From positions 1 to 21,342 of IMG/VR virus record IMGVR_UViG_3300025141_000924: a stretch of DNA of 21,342 bases; one strand, 5' to 3'. A model generated the notes under the pieces. It worked only from the letters and a program-made list of their open reading frames with translations. It searched no databases and was not told the origin of the DNA. Position numbers and translations under genes: made by a program. This DNA is from a virus. Below are positions 1 through 16,300 of this stretch, in pieces; within the stretch, counting starts at the first letter, position 1; the number at the start of each line of letters is the position of its first letter.

Positions 1-2574
1 AATGGCGTGCCTTTAGACAGTGGTGGGGCGTACGGCCTTTGGCTTTTTTCTAGTGGCTCCGACGCTACTCTCGATACCGCGCGCTTGGGCGCCATCTTTT
101 ATGTAAATGATGGAGCAATTGCCCTTAGTGGTAATATTCGTGGTGGGTCAGGTTGGGACAACGCTACTGATGGTGGCGCAGGATTTGCGGGTACCACCGC
201 AAGTTTGAACGTGCCCATTGGTAATGATAGCAATAACTTGTTTACTTTGGTTGTAACGGGTACAACGGGTCAGGAAACACTGCGGTTTGGATTTGATGAT
301 TCGAGCAGCAATTTCCTTCGTAAGAGAGTGAATACAAATCCTCAATTAGTGACCGCTCGGGGTGAGTTTTACCCGTCCGCCTCGGCCAAAGATTATTGGT
401 TGGGCGAAAGTTATGAGCAAGAGCTTCGGGACAACACTCTTACTGGTGATGCTCAAGCTATTATGCTTATGATTGGTAGCGCTTCAGCCGGTTCATCTCC
501 AGGCACCACAAGCACAATTGGCCCTTCTCGATTGAAAAATCAGAACGCGCGCGAAGCAGTTGCTGGTTGGTTTATTGGTCAGGATCTGCAAGCAGCGGGC
601 GACTACGTACCTTTTAACGCTCAAAAGCTTTTTCGGTTGCATGGTAGAGGACACGGACAGTGGCTTCAACGAAACGTTAAAGTTTCGATCGAGAAGATCC
701 GCCAGTCTAATACCACTACTACTGATTACGGAAGTTTCTCGTTGGTGCTCCGCTCATTGCTGGATACTGATAGCAATGTAGTGGTTCTGGAGCGCTATGA
801 TAACTTAACTTTGGATCCCACGTCACCCAATTTCATTGCTCGTCGTGTTGGTGATCAATATGAAAGCTGGGATGCGACCGGCCGGCGCCTTAAGACTTAT
901 GGAGATTTCCCGAATGAATCGAGCTTTATTCGCGTAGAAATGAACGCTGATGTAGAAGCTGGCGCAACGGATCCTCTTCTGTTGCCTTTCGGCTATATGG
1001 GTCCACCAAGGTTTAAAACTGTAGAGGATGTTACCAATAATGGTGATCAAACTTGGGCTTCTTATTTGACAGGAGGGATCGGCACCCCGTATGTTGTTTC
1101 TGGTTCGGGAATTCCCGAGGTTTATGTAGATGGTGTTCCCTTTATCTCCGGTGCCACTGATGGCGTCGGGGAAGCCGGATATCTCTCGCCTATTTTTACC
1201 GGTTCCTTCGCTTTCCCTTATGTTCGCCAGCGGCTTTCCGCTTCGGACGGTGGGCTCACTGATCCTACAGATGCTTATTTTGGAATGCAAACTACTCGGG
1301 AAGCTACCAGCACCCGCGCCGACGCGAGTGTGAAAGATTATCACAATCTCTTATACGCAGGCTTCCCAAGCGATCCTACCGACTCTACCAACTTCGAGAA
1401 AGGTGTTGACGCATGGTCTTATGTTTTCAGTCTTGATAACGTGGTGCGCCTTAATGCTTCACAATATTACTATCAGTCTGGTTCTCGGGTGCTCGGTACC
1501 TCTTATTCCGCCACCAATGATTACGCGACCCTCTTGGATGCTGATTATAACCGCTTTAGTGCTCCATTTTGGGGTGGGTTTGATGGATTCGATATTAAAT
1601 ATCCCGATCCTCTCTATAACGATGGCATGAGTTCCACTTCCAATGAAACTAATAGTTATGTCTATAACACATGGAAGCGCGCGATTGATACTGTGTCTGA
1701 TCCAGAGTATCTTAACATGAATATGCTCACCGCTCCGGGTTTGACTTTGGAGAATTTAACCACACACCTTATCAATGTCTGTGCTGAACGCGCAGATGCA
1801 CTCGGACTCATTGACTTGCCCGATGTCTATATTCCTCCTCATGAGAAATACTATGCATCCAAGCAGGATAGAATTGGTACCACCCCGAACACGGCTGCCA
1901 CTGCGCTGAAGAACCGCCGAATTGATTCGAGTTATGGATGTACTTTTTATCCATGGGTCCAGACGCGGGATTCGAACACAGGAGTTCTGCTATGGATTCC
2001 CCCCACTGTGGCAATGATGGGTGTATTAGCATCTTCTCAAGCTAGCACCGATGTATGGTTTGCGCCAGCCGGCTTTAACCGCGGCGGCCTTACGGATGGG
2101 GCGGCAGGAATTCCTATTACTTCTGTAAGTGAGCGATTGATTTCTAAAGACCGTGACACCCTTTATGAAGCCCGTATTAATCCAATTGCATCTTTCCCCT
2201 CTAGTGGAATTGTGGTATTTGGACAAAAGACCCTTCAAGAACTGCCAAGCGCTTTGGATCGGATTAACGTGAGAAGACTAGTCATCTATCTCAAGAAGCA
2301 AATTTCGATCCTGGCCACTGAGGTGCTTTTTGAACAGAATGTGGAAGCCACTTGGCTCCGCTTTAAGAATCTGGTAGAGCCATTCTTGTCGAATGTACTC
2401 TCTGGCTATGGTATCACCGATTACCGCTTGGTATTGGACGAAAGTACCACTACTCCGGATTTAATCGATCAGAACGTCATGTACGCGAAGATTATGATTA
2501 AACCTGCTCGTGCTATCGAATACATCGCGATTGACTTCGTGGTTCTTTCGACTGGTGCATCTTTTGATGACTAA
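1..2574 (+). CDS. gp18: Contractile tail sheath protein (gp18-like), 5' end missing
   Basis: Forms the contractile outer sheath around the tail tube and drives DNA injection when it shortens. The frame is open from the first base, so the true start lies upstream; the GTG at 7 is only the first possible start inside the window. The last 170 or so codons are typical of the sheath C-terminal domain: a WFAPAGFNRGG segment, then a stretch with VFGQKTL, RINVRRLVIYLKK, EPFL and a closing domain ending IDFVVLSTGASF. At 857 or more codons it is much longer than T4 gp18 (659 residues), so it probably carries extra surface domains in the N-terminal two thirds, as sheath proteins often do. The tail tube gene follows 47 bases later, the usual order. 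The call is very secure; the function of the extra domains is unknown. Confidence 0.95.
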   Translation, partial: NGVPLDSGGAYGLWLFSSGSDATLDTARLGAIFYVNDGAIALSGNIRGGSGWDNATDGGAGFAGTTASLNVPIGNDSNNLFTLVVTGTTGQETLRFGFDDSSSNFLRKRVNTNPQLVTARGEFYPSASAKDYWLGESYEQELRDNTLTGDAQAIMLMIGSASAGSSPGTTSTIGPSRLKNQNAREAVAGWFIGQDLQAAGDYVPFNAQKLFRLHGRGHGQWLQRNVKVSIEKIRQSNTTTTDYGSFSLVLRSLLDTDSNVVVLERYDNLTLDPTSPNFIARRVGDQYESWDATGRRLKTYGDFPNESSFIRVEMNADVEAGATDPLLLPFGYMGPPRFKTVEDVTNNGDQTWASYLTGGIGTPYVVSGSGIPEVYVDGVPFISGATDGVGEAGYLSPIFTGSFAFPYVRQRLSASDGGLTDPTDAYFGMQTTREATSTRADASVKDYHNLLYAGFPSDPTDSTNFEKGVDAWSYVFSLDNVVRLNASQYYYQSGSRVLGTSYSATNDYATLLDADYNRFSAPFWGGFDGFDIKYPDPLYNDGMSSTSNETNSYVYNTWKRAIDTVSDPEYLNMNMLTAPGLTLENLTTHLINVCAERADALGLIDLPDVYIPPHEKYYASKQDRIGTTPNTAATALKNRRIDSSYGCTFYPWVQTRDSNTGVLLWIPPTVAMMGVLASSQASTDVWFAPAGFNRGGLTDGAAGIPITSVSERLISKDRDTLYEARINPIASFPSSGIVVFGQKTLQELPSALDRINVRRLVIYLKKQISILATEVLFEQNVEATWLRFKNLVEPFLSNVLSGYGITDYRLVLDESTTTPDLIDQNVMYAKIMIKPARAIEYIAIDFVVLSTGASFDD

Positions 2575-2621: not shown

Positions 2622-3218
2622 ATGGCATTTTGGTCAACTAACTTTGGAGAAGACTCCACCCTTGCGGATCCTAAAAGAAATTTTAGATTTGTAGTATCTT
2701 TTGATGGAATCTCTGCCGGCTCCACCGGTGACGCTGCTGCCCTGTGGTATGCGAAGAGTGTCGCCAAGCCATCTTTTGCAATTGCAGCTGCTGAACACAA
2801 GTATTTAAATCATACGTTTTATTATCCGGGTTCTGTCACATGGAATGATGTAGCAGTGACTTTAGTTGACCCCGTGGATCCCGATATGACTGCAACATTA
2901 TCCGATATCGTTCAGGCGTCTGGCTATCAACCGCCGGCTACCGTAAGCGATCGTACTACGATGTCCAAGGCTAAATCTGCAGCCGCGCTCGGGACTGTGA
3001 CTATCCAGCAAATCGATGCCGAGGGTAATAATTTAGAAACTTGGACGTTGTGGAACGCATTTATTACAGATCTTAAATATGGCGATCTGGAATATGGAAA
3101 CGATGATCTAACTGAACTTACTGTTACCCTCAAGTATGACTGGGCCCGCGTAGAGACTACTCATAAATCCGCTGGACCCACTGAAGGAACTACATTCTTT
3201 GGCACAAACAGTGCTTAA
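2622..3218 (+). CDS. gp19: Tail tube protein (gp19-like)
   Basis: Subunit of the inner tail tube through which DNA passes. The 198-residue protein is close to the usual size of T4 gp19 (163 residues). It has the family pattern: an opening with DPKRNFRFVV, then YAKSVAKPSF, then NHTFYYPGSVTWNDVAVTLVDP, and a C-terminal half with WTLWNAFITDLKYGDLEYGNDDLTELTVTLKYDWA broken over several strands. The ATG at 2622 has an AAAGGAAA ribosome binding site about ten bases upstream. It lies directly behind the sheath gene and before the gp26-like gene. No signal peptide or membrane segment is seen, as expected for an assembled virion part. Confidence 0.95.
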   Translation: MAFWSTNFGEDSTLADPKRNFRFVVSFDGISAGSTGDAAALWYAKSVAKPSFAIAAAEHKYLNHTFYYPGSVTWNDVAVTLVDPVDPDMTATLSDIVQASGYQPPATVSDRTTMSKAKSAAALGTVTIQQIDAEGNNLETWTLWNAFITDLKYGDLEYGNDDLTELTVTLKYDWARVETTHKSAGPTEGTTFFGTNSA

Positions 3219-3247: not shown

Positions 3248-4135
3248 TTGTCAAGAAATAGAGGTAGGGTTGGAAACCCAAAAACCGGCGCAACCACACA
3301 GGACGGCGCACCCCCCCCGGACCTAATGGATGATTCAACGCGCCCACAAGAGAACAGCGCTACTTTTTCCTTTGTGGTACCCACTGAGTTCGTGGACCTT
3401 CCATCCGAAGGAAAATATTACCCCACTGGGCACCCTTTACATGGGTGTGATACATTGGAAATTCGTCAGATGACGGCTAAAGAAGAAGATATGCTCACGT
3501 CACGCAGTCTCTTAAAGAAGGGCATTGCCGTTGATCGTGTGCTACAGAGCATTATAGTAGATAATCGAGTGAGTGCTGATTCTCTGTTAATTGGAGATCG
3601 AAACGCCTTAATCATTGCCGCTCGCTGTAGTGGCTACGGCAACGACTATCATACGTCGGTAACATGTCCTGAATGTTCGACTAAACAAGCTTATACTTTT
3701 GATCTTAACGAAGCTCAAATCACTGAAGGGGCCACTTTTGATGTGATGGAAGCTACTAATAATGAGGATGGCACATTTGATCTGCAGCTTCCTGTGACGC
3801 AAGTAACAGTTACTTTTCGATTGCTCACGGGCGCCGACGAACGAAAGTTTTTAAATAGTGTTCAGAAAGGTCCACGAAGTAAGAATAAAAGAGATGCTGT
3901 AATTACCACTCAATTACGCAATTTAATTGTCGGTGTTAATGGGGATGGTTCTGCTGATGCGATCAATTATCTTATTAACAATATTCCTTCCCGAGATTCC
4001 CGGCGCCTGAGAAATGTTTATAAGTTGGCTTCTCCTGATATCGATTTAACCCAGCACTTTGAGTGTGATCACTGCGACTATAGTAACGACATGGAGGTGC
4101 CGCTGACTGCGGACTTTTTTTGGCCTGACCGATGA
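3248..4135 (+). CDS. Baseplate hub assembly/tail chaperone protein (T4 gp26-like family)
   Basis: Matches the T4-type baseplate protein family found between tube and tape measure genes of myoviruses. Family hallmarks are FVDLPSEGKYYPTGHPLHG (residues about 48-66) and then EIRQMTAKEEDMLTSRSLLKKG (about 71-92), followed by RVLQSIIVDN. Two CxxC pairs (C140/C143 and C273/C276) could bind a zinc ion. The first 40 residues are low in complexity, rich in Gly, Pro and Asp, and contain a run of eight C bases at 3311-3318. The start is TTG. The role is probably assembly of the baseplate hub or chaperoning of the tape measure, by analogy with gp26 and with the G protein of lambda; this is inference. The gene ends in a TTT TTT TGG stretch that may let ribosomes slip into the next frame. 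Confidence 0.85.
   Translation: MSRNRGRVGNPKTGATTQDGAPPPDLMDDSTRPQENSATFSFVVPTEFVDLPSEGKYYPTGHPLHGCDTLEIRQMTAKEEDMLTSRSLLKKGIAVDRVLQSIIVDNRVSADSLLIGDRNALIIAARCSGYGNDYHTSVTCPECSTKQAYTFDLNEAQITEGATFDVMEATNNEDGTFDLQLPVTQVTVTFRLLTGADERKFLNSVQKGPRSKNKRDAVITTQLRNLIVGVNGDGSADAINYLINNIPSRDSRRLRNVYKLASPDIDLTQHFECDHCDYSNDMEVPLTADFFWPDR
4115..4121 (+). other. Candidate +1 programmed frameshift site (seven T)
   Basis: In the gp26-like frame the codons are GAC TTT TTT TGG CCT GAC CGA TGA. A slip of one base forward on TTT gives GGC CTG ACC GAT GAA TAC ATG, which runs without a stop into the small gene at 4140. That downstream frame is open from 4107, just after a TGA at 4104, so the two frames overlap across the slippery run. 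The product would be about 381 residues: 291 from the first frame plus 90 from the second. Tail genes at this position in many phages use such frameshifts, mostly -1 but sometimes other kinds. The small gene has no visible ribosome binding site, which fits. Confidence 0.5.
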
Positions 4136-4139
4136 ATAC

Positions 4140-4394
4140 ATGCAGGACGTGTATGAGCAGTTTTTCTTCCTCAAATATTCGGGAGGATGGTCATTCTCAG
4201 AAGCTTATAATTTGCCGGTAGGGTTGCGCATATGGTTTGTTAAGCGCCTTATTAAACAATTGGAAGCTGAAAGAGAGGCCGCTGAAAAGGCGCAAAAAAC
4301 AGCCACTAAGGGGTCTTCGTCAAGCCAGACTCTTAATCAATTTAATCAACCCCCACCACCCCGAGGCATGGGGGGTCCACCGCAAAAAAGATGA
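4140..4394 (+). CDS. Small tail assembly chaperone-like protein
   Basis: 84 residues from the ATG. The conserved part is the N-terminal half, VYEQFFFLKYSGGWSFSEA followed by YNLPVGLRIWFVKRLIKQLE, a motif I associate with small proteins encoded behind the gp26-like gene in T4-like phages. The rest is Lys, Gln, Ser and Pro rich and likely flexible, ending in a Pro-Gly stretch. The ATG lies four bases after the preceding stop with no Shine-Dalgarno motif before it, so it is made either by reinitiation after the upstream stop or as the C-terminal part of a frameshift fusion starting near 4122. If fused, the extra residues before the Met read GLTDEY. Its place just before the tape measure gene suggests a tail assembly chaperone. 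The stop codon lies inside the terminator stem. Confidence 0.75.
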   Translation: MQDVYEQFFFLKYSGGWSFSEAYNLPVGLRIWFVKRLIKQLEAEREAAEKAQKTATKGSSSSQTLNQFNQPPPPRGMGGPPQKR

Positions 4395-4418
4395 GATTCG
4401 AAAGAACTCATCTTTTTT
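4384..4418 (+). terminator. Strong intrinsic terminator, works on either strand
   Basis: The arms AAAAAAGATGAG (4384-4395) and CTCATCTTTTTT (4407-4418) are perfect complements. Inside them TTC (4397-4399) pairs with GAA (4404-4406) around a GAAA tetraloop, leaving a single A bulge at 4396. The A run and T run on the two sides make it a terminator in both directions. It separates the sheath-tube-chaperone unit from the tape measure gene, which may limit transcription downstream relative to the abundant sheath and tube. Confidence 0.9.
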
Positions 4419-4461: not shown

Positions 4462-7143
4462 GTGGCTGTCGATGTAAGTGCAATAATTAACCAATTAAAA
4501 GAACTAGATCTTGAAGGTCAGGCGGCCGCTCTAGAAAAACTTTCGGGTAAACAATTAGAAGCCATTCAAGCGTCTGCCGAAGCTTCCGAGGCTATAATCG
4601 AACTAGCAATCAAACAACAACAAGTGTTGGAAAAAGAATTGCAGACGCGAAAAGAGACGGCGACTATTATTCGTGAGGAAATTGAGTTTTTGAAGCAGGC
4701 GATTCTCGCCACGGATGAGATCAATAAAAAACGGTCGCTGCAAAAACAATTGAGAGAGGAGACTCTTGCACTGGCCAAAGCCGAAGCAGCTGTTGAGGAG
4801 GCTCTGGATGCCCTTGTACAAGACAAGCTTGACACCCAGCAGGAGATAGGCAAACAATTAAGGCACACCGAAAGTACCTACCAGCGTTTGACGGGCATCG
4901 CAGGGCAGTTCGCCGCCGAAGGAGAAAGACTAGCTGCAGCGATGATAAACTCTTCGGATTACTCCTCTGGGCTCTTAGGAAAAATCACCGGCATAGCTAA
5001 AAAACTCGAAAGAGCTGCCGGTAAAAAAGGCAAGTCTGGAGCTTGGGGGCTCATGTCAGCCCTTGGAGGGCTAGCCGCTGGAGTCGGAGTAGGTGTTATA
5101 AATGCGATCATAGGATTGGGTTTGGCAATGGATAAAATGACAGCGAGCTTCCGCGAGGCCACTGGCGCTAGCGCTAGTGCTGCTGCATCACTCGGCGACG
5201 TATATGAAGGTACCCGAGAAATAGGTGTGAGTACCGAAGAAGCTGGACAGGCCATGCAAAGTCTCTGGATGAACACTAGCGGCTTTAGCCGAGCCTCGGG
5301 CGATGCACAAGTTGAGATGGGTAAAACGGTAGCCATGCTCGGTGAATTTGGTGTGGCAGTTGACGATGTCACCAAGGGAATGGAAATTTCGATGAAAGTG
5401 TTCGGACAATCCGGCGCCGGTGCTGCAACAACCGCGCGCGAACTGAATGCTCTTGCGTTACAAATCGGTGTTGCGCCTCAGCAGATGGCTCGCGATTTTG
5501 CAGGTGCAGGGGATAGTATTGCTAAGCTTGGAAGTCAAGGCGAGCAAGCCTTTAAAGATTTGGCGCGCCGAGCCAAGATTACCGGTATGGAATTGGGTAA
5601 GATGCTTAAAGTAGTTGAAAAATTTGATACTTTTGAAGGAGCCGCCGAAGCCGCCGGTATGTTAAACGCCGCTATTGGTACAAATGCTGTCAATGCCATG
5701 GATATGATGATGGAGACGGATCCCGCCGCCCGCTTTGACACTCTGCGAGGGGCCCTCTCGGATGCTGGATTGGAATTCGATAATATGAGTTATTATCAGA
5801 GAAAGTTTTACGCACAAGCGATGGGGCTTGACAGCGTGGCAGATCTTGCCATGATGATGTCTGGAAATTACGAGGACCTTAATGGCGAAATGAGTATGAC
5901 CTCTGCAGAATATGAAGAGCAAGCTAAAAAAGCCGAAGAAATGAAATCTATGCAAGAGAAGTTAAATAATGCACTCATGAAGATGGTGCCTATTATAACG
6001 CCGCTTATTGAAAAGCTGACGGTTTTCTTGGAAGAAACTTTAATTCCGCTCATGGAAGAGTGGGGAGAATGGTTTATGTGGCTTGGATTAACGTCCGCTG
6101 CTCTGATGATCTTAACACCCATTGTGAAGACGCTGGGTGCTGTATTCGGCTTCCTGGGAAGAGTGCTGCCCGTCACGGCGGCAGGAGAACATCAGGCTGC
6201 GAGAGGAGCCGATGATCTTTCTCAAAGTTCCGTGCGCGGGGCTAGTGCTATTAGTGGACTAGCCCTTTCAATACTCGCAGTGGGCGCTGCAGTCCTCATG
6301 ATTGGAGGGGGTATTCATTTAGCAGCCACAGGAGTGGCTGAGTTGGTAACGGCTTTTGACGAGGCTGAGAGTGGTTGGGCTGCCGCCGCAGCCATTGGGG
6401 CCGTGACGGTCGCCACGGGCGCCCTCATAAGAACCTTGCACGGCATGAGAGCGCTCGGCGCGCCCGTCATGTTAACGATGCTTGCCATCAGCGCCGCTAT
6501 CTTCGGAATAGGCGCCGGTATAGGAATAGCCGCCTCTGGCATGGCTGATTTGGCTACTGCCATGAGTAATATGTCCGACACCGGTCTGGAGAATTTTGCG
6601 ATCGGAGTGGGTCTGATGACGGCCGCCTTGATAGGTTTAGCTGGCGCCGTTTCTATGTTTAGCAATCCCGTAACTGCCGGAGGTGCCGCGATCTTGGGCG
6701 GCATCGCCGCCGCCGGCGCTGTGATCAAGAAACTCTTCGAAGGCGATAATAGTGATACTACTAACTACGAGGGAATGTCCACTGCGCTACAAGCTTTATC
6801 AGCTATGGGCGGAGTGGCTGAACTCCGAGAGGTACGCTCCGTGTTCGAGGGTATGCGTGAGGCTATGGATGGCACTGACTTTCTTACAGTTACCGCTGCA
6901 GCAATGATGTTTAAGAATATAGGAGGCGCAGCGGAGGCTTTGACTCAAGCCCAGCCAGCTGCTAGCCCGGGCGCCCCGGGACAGACAGGTAGAAATACCG
7001 CCGGCCGCGGCGACAATTATACTATCACGCTGCCTATTTATATCGGCGACGAAAAGTTTGATGAGAAGGTATATACTATAGCAGAAGGCGCCGCTCAAGA
7101 GGTCTATGATCGAGAGGCAACCGCGGCAGTCAACCCCCGATAA
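4462..7143 (+). CDS. Tail tape measure protein
   Basis: Extended protein inside the tube that sets tail length and helps DNA cross the membrane. Of 893 residues, the first 160 are almost entirely charged and Leu/Ala-rich helix (coiled-coil character). A hydrophobic Gly/Ala segment follows at about 195-222. A conserved middle region (about 225-460) has the look of tape measure proteins of marine T4-like phages. Several more hydrophobic Gly/Ala-rich stretches occupy about 535-770, interrupted by ATGVAEL and ASGMADL repeats of similar design. At about 0.15 nm per residue the tail would be near 130 nm long, longer than the roughly 100 nm of T4; this is an estimate. The start is GTG with a fair ribosome binding site. 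It is the first gene after the terminator. Confidence 0.88.
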   Translation: MAVDVSAIINQLKELDLEGQAAALEKLSGKQLEAIQASAEASEAIIELAIKQQQVLEKELQTRKETATIIREEIEFLKQAILATDEINKKRSLQKQLREETLALAKAEAAVEEALDALVQDKLDTQQEIGKQLRHTESTYQRLTGIAGQFAAEGERLAAAMINSSDYSSGLLGKITGIAKKLERAAGKKGKSGAWGLMSALGGLAAGVGVGVINAIIGLGLAMDKMTASFREATGASASAAASLGDVYEGTREIGVSTEEAGQAMQSLWMNTSGFSRASGDAQVEMGKTVAMLGEFGVAVDDVTKGMEISMKVFGQSGAGAATTARELNALALQIGVAPQQMARDFAGAGDSIAKLGSQGEQAFKDLARRAKITGMELGKMLKVVEKFDTFEGAAEAAGMLNAAIGTNAVNAMDMMMETDPAARFDTLRGALSDAGLEFDNMSYYQRKFYAQAMGLDSVADLAMMMSGNYEDLNGEMSMTSAEYEEQAKKAEEMKSMQEKLNNALMKMVPIITPLIEKLTVFLEETLIPLMEEWGEWFMWLGLTSAALMILTPIVKTLGAVFGFLGRVLPVTAAGEHQAARGADDLSQSSVRGASAISGLALSILAVGAAVLMIGGGIHLAATGVAELVTAFDEAESGWAAAAAIGAVTVATGALIRTLHGMRALGAPVMLTMLAISAAIFGIGAGIGIAASGMADLATAMSNMSDTGLENFAIGVGLMTAALIGLAGAVSMFSNPVTAGGAAILGGIAAAGAVIKKLFEGDNSDTTNYEGMSTALQALSAMGGVAELREVRSVFEGMREAMDGTDFLTVTAAAMMFKNIGGAAEALTQAQPAASPGAPGQTGRNTAGRGDNYTITLPIYIGDEKFDEKVYTIAEGAAQEVYDREATAAVNPR

Positions 7144-15103: not shown

Positions 15104-16300
15104 TTGATTTTCCAGACCATTGATGATAAAAGTGAATGTATAGGAATCTATACAGACGGCAAATTATTTTACGAAGATTTTCCCGATGAGTTAACACGCA
15201 CGTGGCGTTATACTGGTTCTCTTACAAACCCAGAGATAGAATATGGACGGTTGTGGAGCAATGGACTCACTCTAGAGGAAGCATGCCCAGAGAATTTGAG
15301 AGCATCTTTCAAAAAATCTCAAAAGCGCCTTTCGGCTTATCTAAAATCTTTCCAGCTGGGTAAGATTGACATGCGAGAACATTGCATTTTTGACTTAGTG
15401 CCGGAAGATTTTCTCATGCAATTCTGTGATATTAAGAACAAAATTACAGCGCATGTGTTTCAAACTCATACGCGGCCCACTAACTATGATCATCTTGCTG
15501 CCATTGATCGTCTGCTATATAAAATTAAATATCAGCATTTAAACCTTAATAATGAAAACTGCAGGGAGCTATATTATTCCTCTCGTTCGCGTACTAAGTC
15601 CACAGAGCTTATAAACAACTATCGTTATATTGATTACAACCTCTTTGGGACCGTTACAGGGCGCCTGACGACGTGCAAAAAGTCTTTTCCTATACTTACT
15701 GTCAAAAAAGAATTCCGGAAGCTCCTGAAGCCTCACAACGAGTGGTTCTTATCTCTCGATTATAATGCTGCCGAAGCGCGCACATTTTTATCCTTAGCTG
15801 GCCATTCGCAGCCTCTTGAAGATATTCATGTTTGGAACATGAAGAATATTTACCACGACAGCGGAGACACTGGCACCCGAGAGGAAGCCAAGATTAGATT
15901 CTTTGCATGGCTCTACGATCCGAATTCGGACGATATAAACATTGAGAATATCTACGATAAGCAAAAAGTACTTGACCTTTTCTATAAAGATGGGTATATT
16001 AATACAGTCTTTGGGCGTTCTATTTCAGTTACGCCCCAGAAAGCCCTTAATTATTTGATTCAGAGTACCACCGCTGATCTCGTGCTGGAGCGCGCCGTCG
16101 CCATCGATAAATTTTTAGACAATCATAAATCTTTCGTTTCTCATATTGTTCATGATGAAATTGTTATTGATCTGGCCGACGAGGAACGCACCTTGGTACC
16201 TCAGCTTAAAGAACTGTTTAGCACAAACCGTCTCGGAACCTTTGAAGTAAATTTATCATGTGGTTTTAACTATTATGATTTGAAAGAGTTAAAACTATGA
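15104..16300 (+). CDS. Short family A DNA polymerase, polymerase domain only
   Basis: Synthesises DNA; core motifs of the Pol I family are complete. TGRL lies at residues 185-188. Motif A is DYNAAEAR (219-226), with D219 and E224 matching E. coli D705 and E710. The O helix keeps R259, K263, F267 and Y271 at the spacing of R754, K758, F762 and Y766. The Q motif is IQSTTAD (319-325). Motif C is HDE (350-352). The 398 residues include no 3'-5' exonuclease or 5' nuclease domain. Between the O helix and GYINTVFGR only about 25 residues remain against about 55 in Pol I, so the fingers are reduced. The first 180 residues fit a thumb plus an N-terminal part I do not recognise. T4 itself uses a family B enzyme. 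Some distant T4-like phages (as I recall, Rhodothermus phage RM378) carry polymerase and exonuclease as separate genes. Start is TTG; the end overlaps the next gene by ATGA. Confidence 0.88.
   Translation: MIFQTIDDKSECIGIYTDGKLFYEDFPDELTRTWRYTGSLTNPEIEYGRLWSNGLTLEEACPENLRASFKKSQKRLSAYLKSFQLGKIDMREHCIFDLVPEDFLMQFCDIKNKITAHVFQTHTRPTNYDHLAAIDRLLYKIKYQHLNLNNENCRELYYSSRSRTKSTELINNYRYIDYNLFGTVTGRLTTCKKSFPILTVKKEFRKLLKPHNEWFLSLDYNAAEARTFLSLAGHSQPLEDIHVWNMKNIYHDSGDTGTREEAKIRFFAWLYDPNSDDINIENIYDKQKVLDLFYKDGYINTVFGRSISVTPQKALNYLIQSTTADLVLERAVAIDKFLDNHKSFVSHIVHDEIVIDLADEERTLVPQLKELFSTNRLGTFEVNLSCGFNYYDLKELKL

Follow-up and report, generated by a model that had tools for sequence, protein, structure and literature searches.

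Short and frameshifted long tail assembly chaperones are known from phage lambda (gpG and gpGT) and its counterparts (Xu, Hendrix and Duda 2004, as summarised in PMC5009743); the G-T shift is described as widely conserved 'except T4', and a shift of +1 as very likely in the haloarchaeal myovirus HSTV-2 (PMC5009743). The short and long chaperones of T4 are the products of genes 26 and 51 (Vladimirov, Gautam and Davidson 2022, as cited in PMC10885494 and PMC12846349), and poly-T signals for -1 shifts are known in T4-like chaperone genes (PMC12846349). A +1 slip of tRNA-Phe has been shown for influenza A PA-X, at UCC_UUU_CGU (PMC3498833). Here we analyse a gp26-like gene (ORF1) and the second open reading frame (ORF2) that overlaps its end in IMG/VR record IMGVR_UViG_3300025141_000924 (21,342 nt; this whole stretch is referred to as the window). 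The locus is, judged by its sequence and gene order, a tail assembly chaperone module (short/long, G/GT type) of a T4-type contractile-tailed phage, and a conserved +1 programmed frameshift that yields the long chaperone is very probably the best explanation for it.

The gene order in the window is tail sheath, tail tube, ORF1, second frame and probable tape measure protein; ORF1 thus sits between the tail tube and probable tape measure genes, as in known chaperones. ORF1 has a TTG start with GAGGTG upstream, matches PF12322 above the gathering score (66.3 bits; cut-off, 24.5), and ends in ...ADFFWPDR* (stop at 4133-4135), which gives a short form of 295 amino acids. The +1 frame is open from 4107 (after TGA at 4104-4106) to a stop at 4392-4394. 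At the junction, frame 0 reads GAC TTT TTT TGG CCT GAC CGA TGA and the +1 frame TTT GGC CTG ACC GAT GAA TAC ATG; the fusion (3248-4120 joined to 4122-4394) comprises 381 amino acids with the junction ...ADFF-GLTDEYM... The ATG at 4140 is directly preceded by TTTTTTGGCCTGACCGATGAATAC, with no Shine-Dalgarno sequence, and lies four bases 3' of the ORF1 stop. A perfect 12-base inverted repeat (AAAAAAGATGAG/CTCATCTTTTTT, 4384-4418), terminator-like, overlaps the end of ORF2 just 5' of the tape measure gene. Membership in DUF6760 (PF20546) was rejected at 17.8 bits against a Pfam cut-off of 27, and no relatives of solved structure were found for the chaperone family profile or for T4 gp51.

A sequence-only reading of the window had placed the frame overlap at 4107-4135 and a seven-T run, read TTT TTT TGG in frame 0, at 4115-4121, and had described a second ATG without ribosome binding site and a fusion of about 381 residues; each of these details is borne out, and all of its coordinates are correct. 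It had taken the fusion to join a gp26-like protein to a small chaperone: the joining by a +1 shift is supported, the small ORF being best regarded as the C-terminal part of the long chaperone and not as a separate gene.

Relatives were collected in a scan of viral contigs (80 relatives) and in two more scans that started from Microcystis phage Mel-JY01 and from Flavobacterium phage immuto (at least 600 matches each; at least 160 further relatives). Three loci running off their contigs were left out and 240 loci were kept (including L006, the window itself, L001 and L003); these at least 240 loci represent 184 distinct 180-nt junctions, with 57 distinct members in the window clade. In genome assemblies, four query sequences yielded 12 loci, all but one (a chromosome by name) in short or draft metagenome bins; 11 of the 12 were readable across the junction, and all 11 were +1. 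One of the loci from bacterial bins (L273, 3001-3783, in a 2.8-Mb WOR-3 chromosome bin) encodes a close relative of the window chaperone with the same T7 +1 junction, a placement that may reflect either a prophage or a binning error.

The second frame is offset by +1 in all 240 aligned loci; at three of them (L148, L177 and L185) the -1 frame is open for longer by chance, and the conserved protein lies in the +1 frame by homology. Frame 0 stops 3-6 codons past the slip site in 184/184 distinct junctions while +1 is still open, and the +1 frame closes at 65-114 codons in 174 of them, the other 10 running off the contig. The overlap, the offset and the slip site are not due to chance, since they are common to 240 related loci and 184 distinct junctions. 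The comparison with related phages that the sequence-only reading had proposed favours a +1 shift: the T run, the overlap and the offset are conserved, and the ATG is not.

The slip site is TTT TTT TGG in 145 distinct junctions and TTT CTT TGG in 28; the rarer forms are CTT TTT TGG (3), TTT CTA TGG (3), TTC TTT TGG (2), TTT TTT TAC (2) and TTT CTT TAC (1). All variants keep +1 re-pairing at UUU_Y: in every distinct junction tRNA-Phe can move in the P site by +1, from UUU to UUU or UUC, with zero mismatch at codon positions 1-2; a perfect re-pairing had been proposed earlier for the window. The case that had been named as a refutation, i.e. a broken T run with both proteins kept, does occur (L054, L064 and the immuto group); it counts against the T run as such and not against +1 slippage, because the UUU_Y slip is retained at each of these sites.

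Most ribosomes would read ORF1 through to the stop (4133-4135) and release the short form (TAC-N, 295 amino acids). A minority would pause while the P site holds tRNA-Phe paired to UUU, the tRNA would move one base forward to the overlapping UUU, and reading would continue with GGC CTG ACC to 4394, to give the long form (TAC-NC, 381 amino acids). If lambda gpG/gpGT is a guide, the part shared by both forms may coat the tape measure protein and the extension may recruit tail tube subunits. The overlap, the offset, the slip site, the dual coding, the lack of a conserved start and the homology of the extension to the C-terminus of T4 gp51 are shown by comparing sequences; the slippage itself, its rate, the pausing step and these binding roles are inferred.

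A shift of -2, as proposed for phage Mu, would open the same frame with a product longer by one Phe. The sequence-only reading had left this option beside +1, and the T7 of the window does permit -2 re-pairing with zero mismatch; among the distinct junctions, however, 34 of 184 (those with TTT CTT TGG, TTT CTA TGG, TTC TTT TGG or TTT CTT TAC) would have one or more mismatches at codon positions 1-2 after a -2 slip, and none would have any after a +1 slip. The +1 direction is favoured, and the -2 shift is very improbable.

Conservation around the second start codon bears on whether ORF2 is instead a separate small gene (84 amino acids from ATG 4140), with translation initiated either at a ribosome binding site of its own or through termination-reinitiation. 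The ATG lies near the ORF1 stop and is kept in 53 of the 57 distinct members of the window clade, but is ATA or ATT in the other four; in the wider set, Met occupies this position in 53 of 184 distinct junctions, 14 have no Met at all past the slip site, and in 159 no start codon has at least four bases of Shine-Dalgarno sequence nearby. Furthermore, the stretch between slip site and ATG is conserved in the +1 frame (GL..EY; L in 184/184, Y in 177/184), and two codons that are read in both frames, CCT and GAC, are invariant. A separate gene is thus very improbable; since the ATG is kept in 53/57 clade members, it may provide a minor second route inside the window clade. Over 120 nt past the ORF1 stop, the ORF2 frame is stop-free in 52/52 sequences, and stop codons interrupt the two remaining frames in 51/52 and 52/52; the median ratio of non-synonymous to synonymous substitution (dN/dS) is 0.06 (189 computable pairs, most saturated at synonymous sites). 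The second ORF is, on these substitution patterns, under purifying selection.

RNA polymerase slippage on T7 would yield mixed mRNAs that encode both forms, and the window does have a seven-base homopolymer at the junction. Where the T runs are interrupted, with at most 3-4 Ts and in some relatives only 3, the gene arrangement is nevertheless unchanged, and the -1-class relatives (see below) have ordinary ribosomal heptamers; transcriptional slippage is therefore rated as highly improbable. Homopolymers are error-prone in general, but a sequencing or assembly error that splits one long ORF is as good as dismissed by 184 distinct junctions from many metagenomes and from the cultured isolates Mel-JY01, immuto and RM378, including sites without a long run.

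The opposite frame offset was found in more distant relatives. In 18/18 scored distant relatives (RaK2, PBECO4, PA5oct, Atu_ph07, XacN1, RAS14, GAP32, Munch, XaC1, Hallingskeid, Vibrio 2.275, Phosso, SCTP-2, cyanophage P-SSM7, RL2RES, phiWae14, KVP40-type V09 and one uncultured huge phage), gp26 extends to the same FF pair (FL in RL2RES), and the ORF after it lies in the -1 frame, with T_TTT_TT(C/T/G) at the junction. An exception is the Ackermannviridae Salmonella phage GG32 (L108, 2190-2420), with a -1 ORF after gp26 and no canonical slippery heptamer (GAGATTTTCATTTAA). The ORF lies in the +1 frame, at UUU_Y, also in Bacillus SP-15, Listeria LIS04, Streptococcus GXN1, RM378 and another huge phage. 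In XacN1 (L089) and RAS14 (L094), the -1 site is T_TTT_TTT followed by A, i.e. a T7 run as in the +1 group with the opposite direction. The annotated gp51 of P-SSM7 (L104, 2574-2669; 31 amino acids) covers no more than the last part of the -1 frameshift extension, and in several jumbo phages similar pieces of the extension carry the annotation 'hypothetical protein'.

The ORF2 sets of the +1 and -1 phages are homologous (probability 97.7%, E 1.5e-12; score 65 vs at most 12 for shuffled columns). PF12322 is matched by T4 gp26 (E 9e-64) as well as by T4 gp51 (E 4e-52); gp26 ends with ...KEFFELL* at the junction, gp51 carries an ORF2-like tail in frame, and the KVP40-type ORF2 matches the gp51 C-terminus (probability 97%, E 1.1e-10). 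Hence, on profile similarity and via the -1-class relatives, the long-form extension is homologous to the C-terminus of T4 gp51. The link to T4 that had been drawn from the window alone holds, with gp26 as the short and gp51 as the long form from separate genes, and had already been drawn in the literature. In Cronobacter phage leE (L269, 801-2094), the genes for gp51 and gp26 follow each other on the same strand and adjoin gene 25; the two are divergent in T4.

On a maximum-likelihood tree of the common part, phages of each type (+1, -1 or split) tend to group together, with 4 changes vs 19 for shuffled labels, and the split T4 genes group with the KVP40/cyanophage -1 phages (100/100). The tree forces at least one change of direction, the exact number being unsure given the long branches.

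In the window clade, synonymous codons 5' of the slip site are near-invariant (GAG 57/57, CCG 56/57, GCG 55/57 and GAC 54/57; at the site itself, TTT 57/57 and CCT 55/55; baseline, a mean observed/expected codon entropy of 0.81 over conserved, degenerate columns), and form the element GGAGGT-N-CCGC-N5-GCGG-AC-T7. GGAGGT (4093-4098) ends 16 nt before the T run, the A-site codon being UGG, and CCGC-N5-GCGG is kept in 51 of the 57 distinct members, with rare departures that lack clear compensation. The element could act as a stimulator of Shine-Dalgarno type, form a small stem, or do both. It is absent from the immuto and Mel-JY01 groups. A start at codon 4107 with GGAGGT as ribosome binding site was also considered and rejected; this codon varies (CCG/CTG/CAG/ACG/GTG/CGG/ATG) and is not conserved as a start.

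Several points weigh against a programmed +1 shift as drawn here. The upstream element is limited to the window clade, so it does not explain how the slip is stimulated family-wide; the A site (UGG) holds neither a stop nor an obviously rare codon; no conserved downstream RNA structure was established, single-sequence folds differing between relatives; and the +1 ORF2, compared directly with T4 gp51, gives a weak match (probability 16%), the homology leaning on the KVP40-type intermediates.

For the history of the family, we lean towards a scenario in which the direction of the shift switched between -1 (U_UUU_UUN) and +1 (UUU_Y) at the same codon pair, gene duplication replaced the shift on the T4 branch, and one +1 marine clade gained an upstream element (GGAGGT and a small stem) that would promote slipping in the +1 direction while the A site holds a sense codon.

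The features of the chaperone locus and its flanking genes are summarized in Table 1. The probable tape measure product has 23% identity over 235 amino acids (E 8e-6; a single, modest comparison) to the annotated tape measure protein of Flavobacterium phage immuto. Elsewhere in the window, a compact family A DNA polymerase-like ORF (15104-16300; 398 amino acids) was found, with top matches to the C-terminal parts of polymerase profiles.

Table 1. Positions and supporting evidence of features at the chaperone locus of the window
Feature	Position	Strand	Evidence
Tail sheath protein (5' end cut by window start)	1..2574	+	PHROG 23 tail sheath, E 8e-56
gp19-like tail tube protein	2622..3218	+	PHROG 4542 tail tube, E 1.7e-26
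ORF1, short tail assembly chaperone (TAC-N, gp26-like)	3248..4135	+	PF12322 E 4e-18, PHROG 150 E 9e-21
Candidate clade-specific stimulator GGAGGT-N-CCGC-N5-GCGG	4093..4112	+	near-invariant synonymous codons, 57 distinct relatives
Frame 0 / frame +1 overlap	4107..4135	+	
Slip site TTT TTT T(GG)	4115..4121	+	P-site UUU re-pairs to UUU at +1
C-terminal extension after +1 shift	4122..4394	+	purifying selection; homology to -1-class ORF2s
ATG, gene start per ORF callers	4140..4142	+	without ribosome binding site, not conserved
Probable tape measure protein	4462..7143	+	position 3' of chaperone; similarity to immuto tape measure

The analysis places a large group of environmental T4-type phages (at least 600 matches in each of two scans) in the short/long chaperone scheme, and accounts for small genes annotated as 'hypothetical' or as fragmentary 'gp51', which would be the second half of a gene with a frameshift, the long product being missed by gene callers. 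The +1 shift, the -1 shift and the two-gene arrangement form a natural series in which a change of direction can be studied with the protein output kept.

The proposed frameshifted chaperone is a variation on a well-known scheme; possibly new are the conserved +1 direction in this family, the change of direction relative to the -1 relatives, and the clade-specific upstream RNA element. T4 gp26 and gp51 share with the window the PF12322/PHROG 150 family, the short and long forms and the homologous C-terminal extension, and gp26 ends where frame 0 of the window ends; unlike the window, with +1 at UUU_Y, T4 uses two genes, and other scored relatives have the ORF in the -1 frame at T_TTT_TTC. Lambda gpG/gpGT likewise lies between tube and tape measure and makes a short and a frameshifted long chaperone, but shifts -1; the likeness noted here is one of gene position and scheme. 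A Mu-type -2 frameshift fits less well, as re-pairing two bases back would meet at least one mismatch in the 34 junctions given above. Influenza A PA-X resembles the window in the single P-site tRNA-Phe, the +1 slip on UUU_C and the absence of any need for a stop codon, and differs in its eukaryotic host, unrelated gene and rare A-site codon. The gene for bacterial RF2 (prfB) is read through a +1 frameshift by a one-base slip in the P site; the likeness extends to this slip, to CTT T before GG in the immuto group, and to a Shine-Dalgarno-like run upstream in the window clade, whereas GGAGGT ends 16 nt before the T run in the window, compared with 3 nt before the slip codon in RF2.
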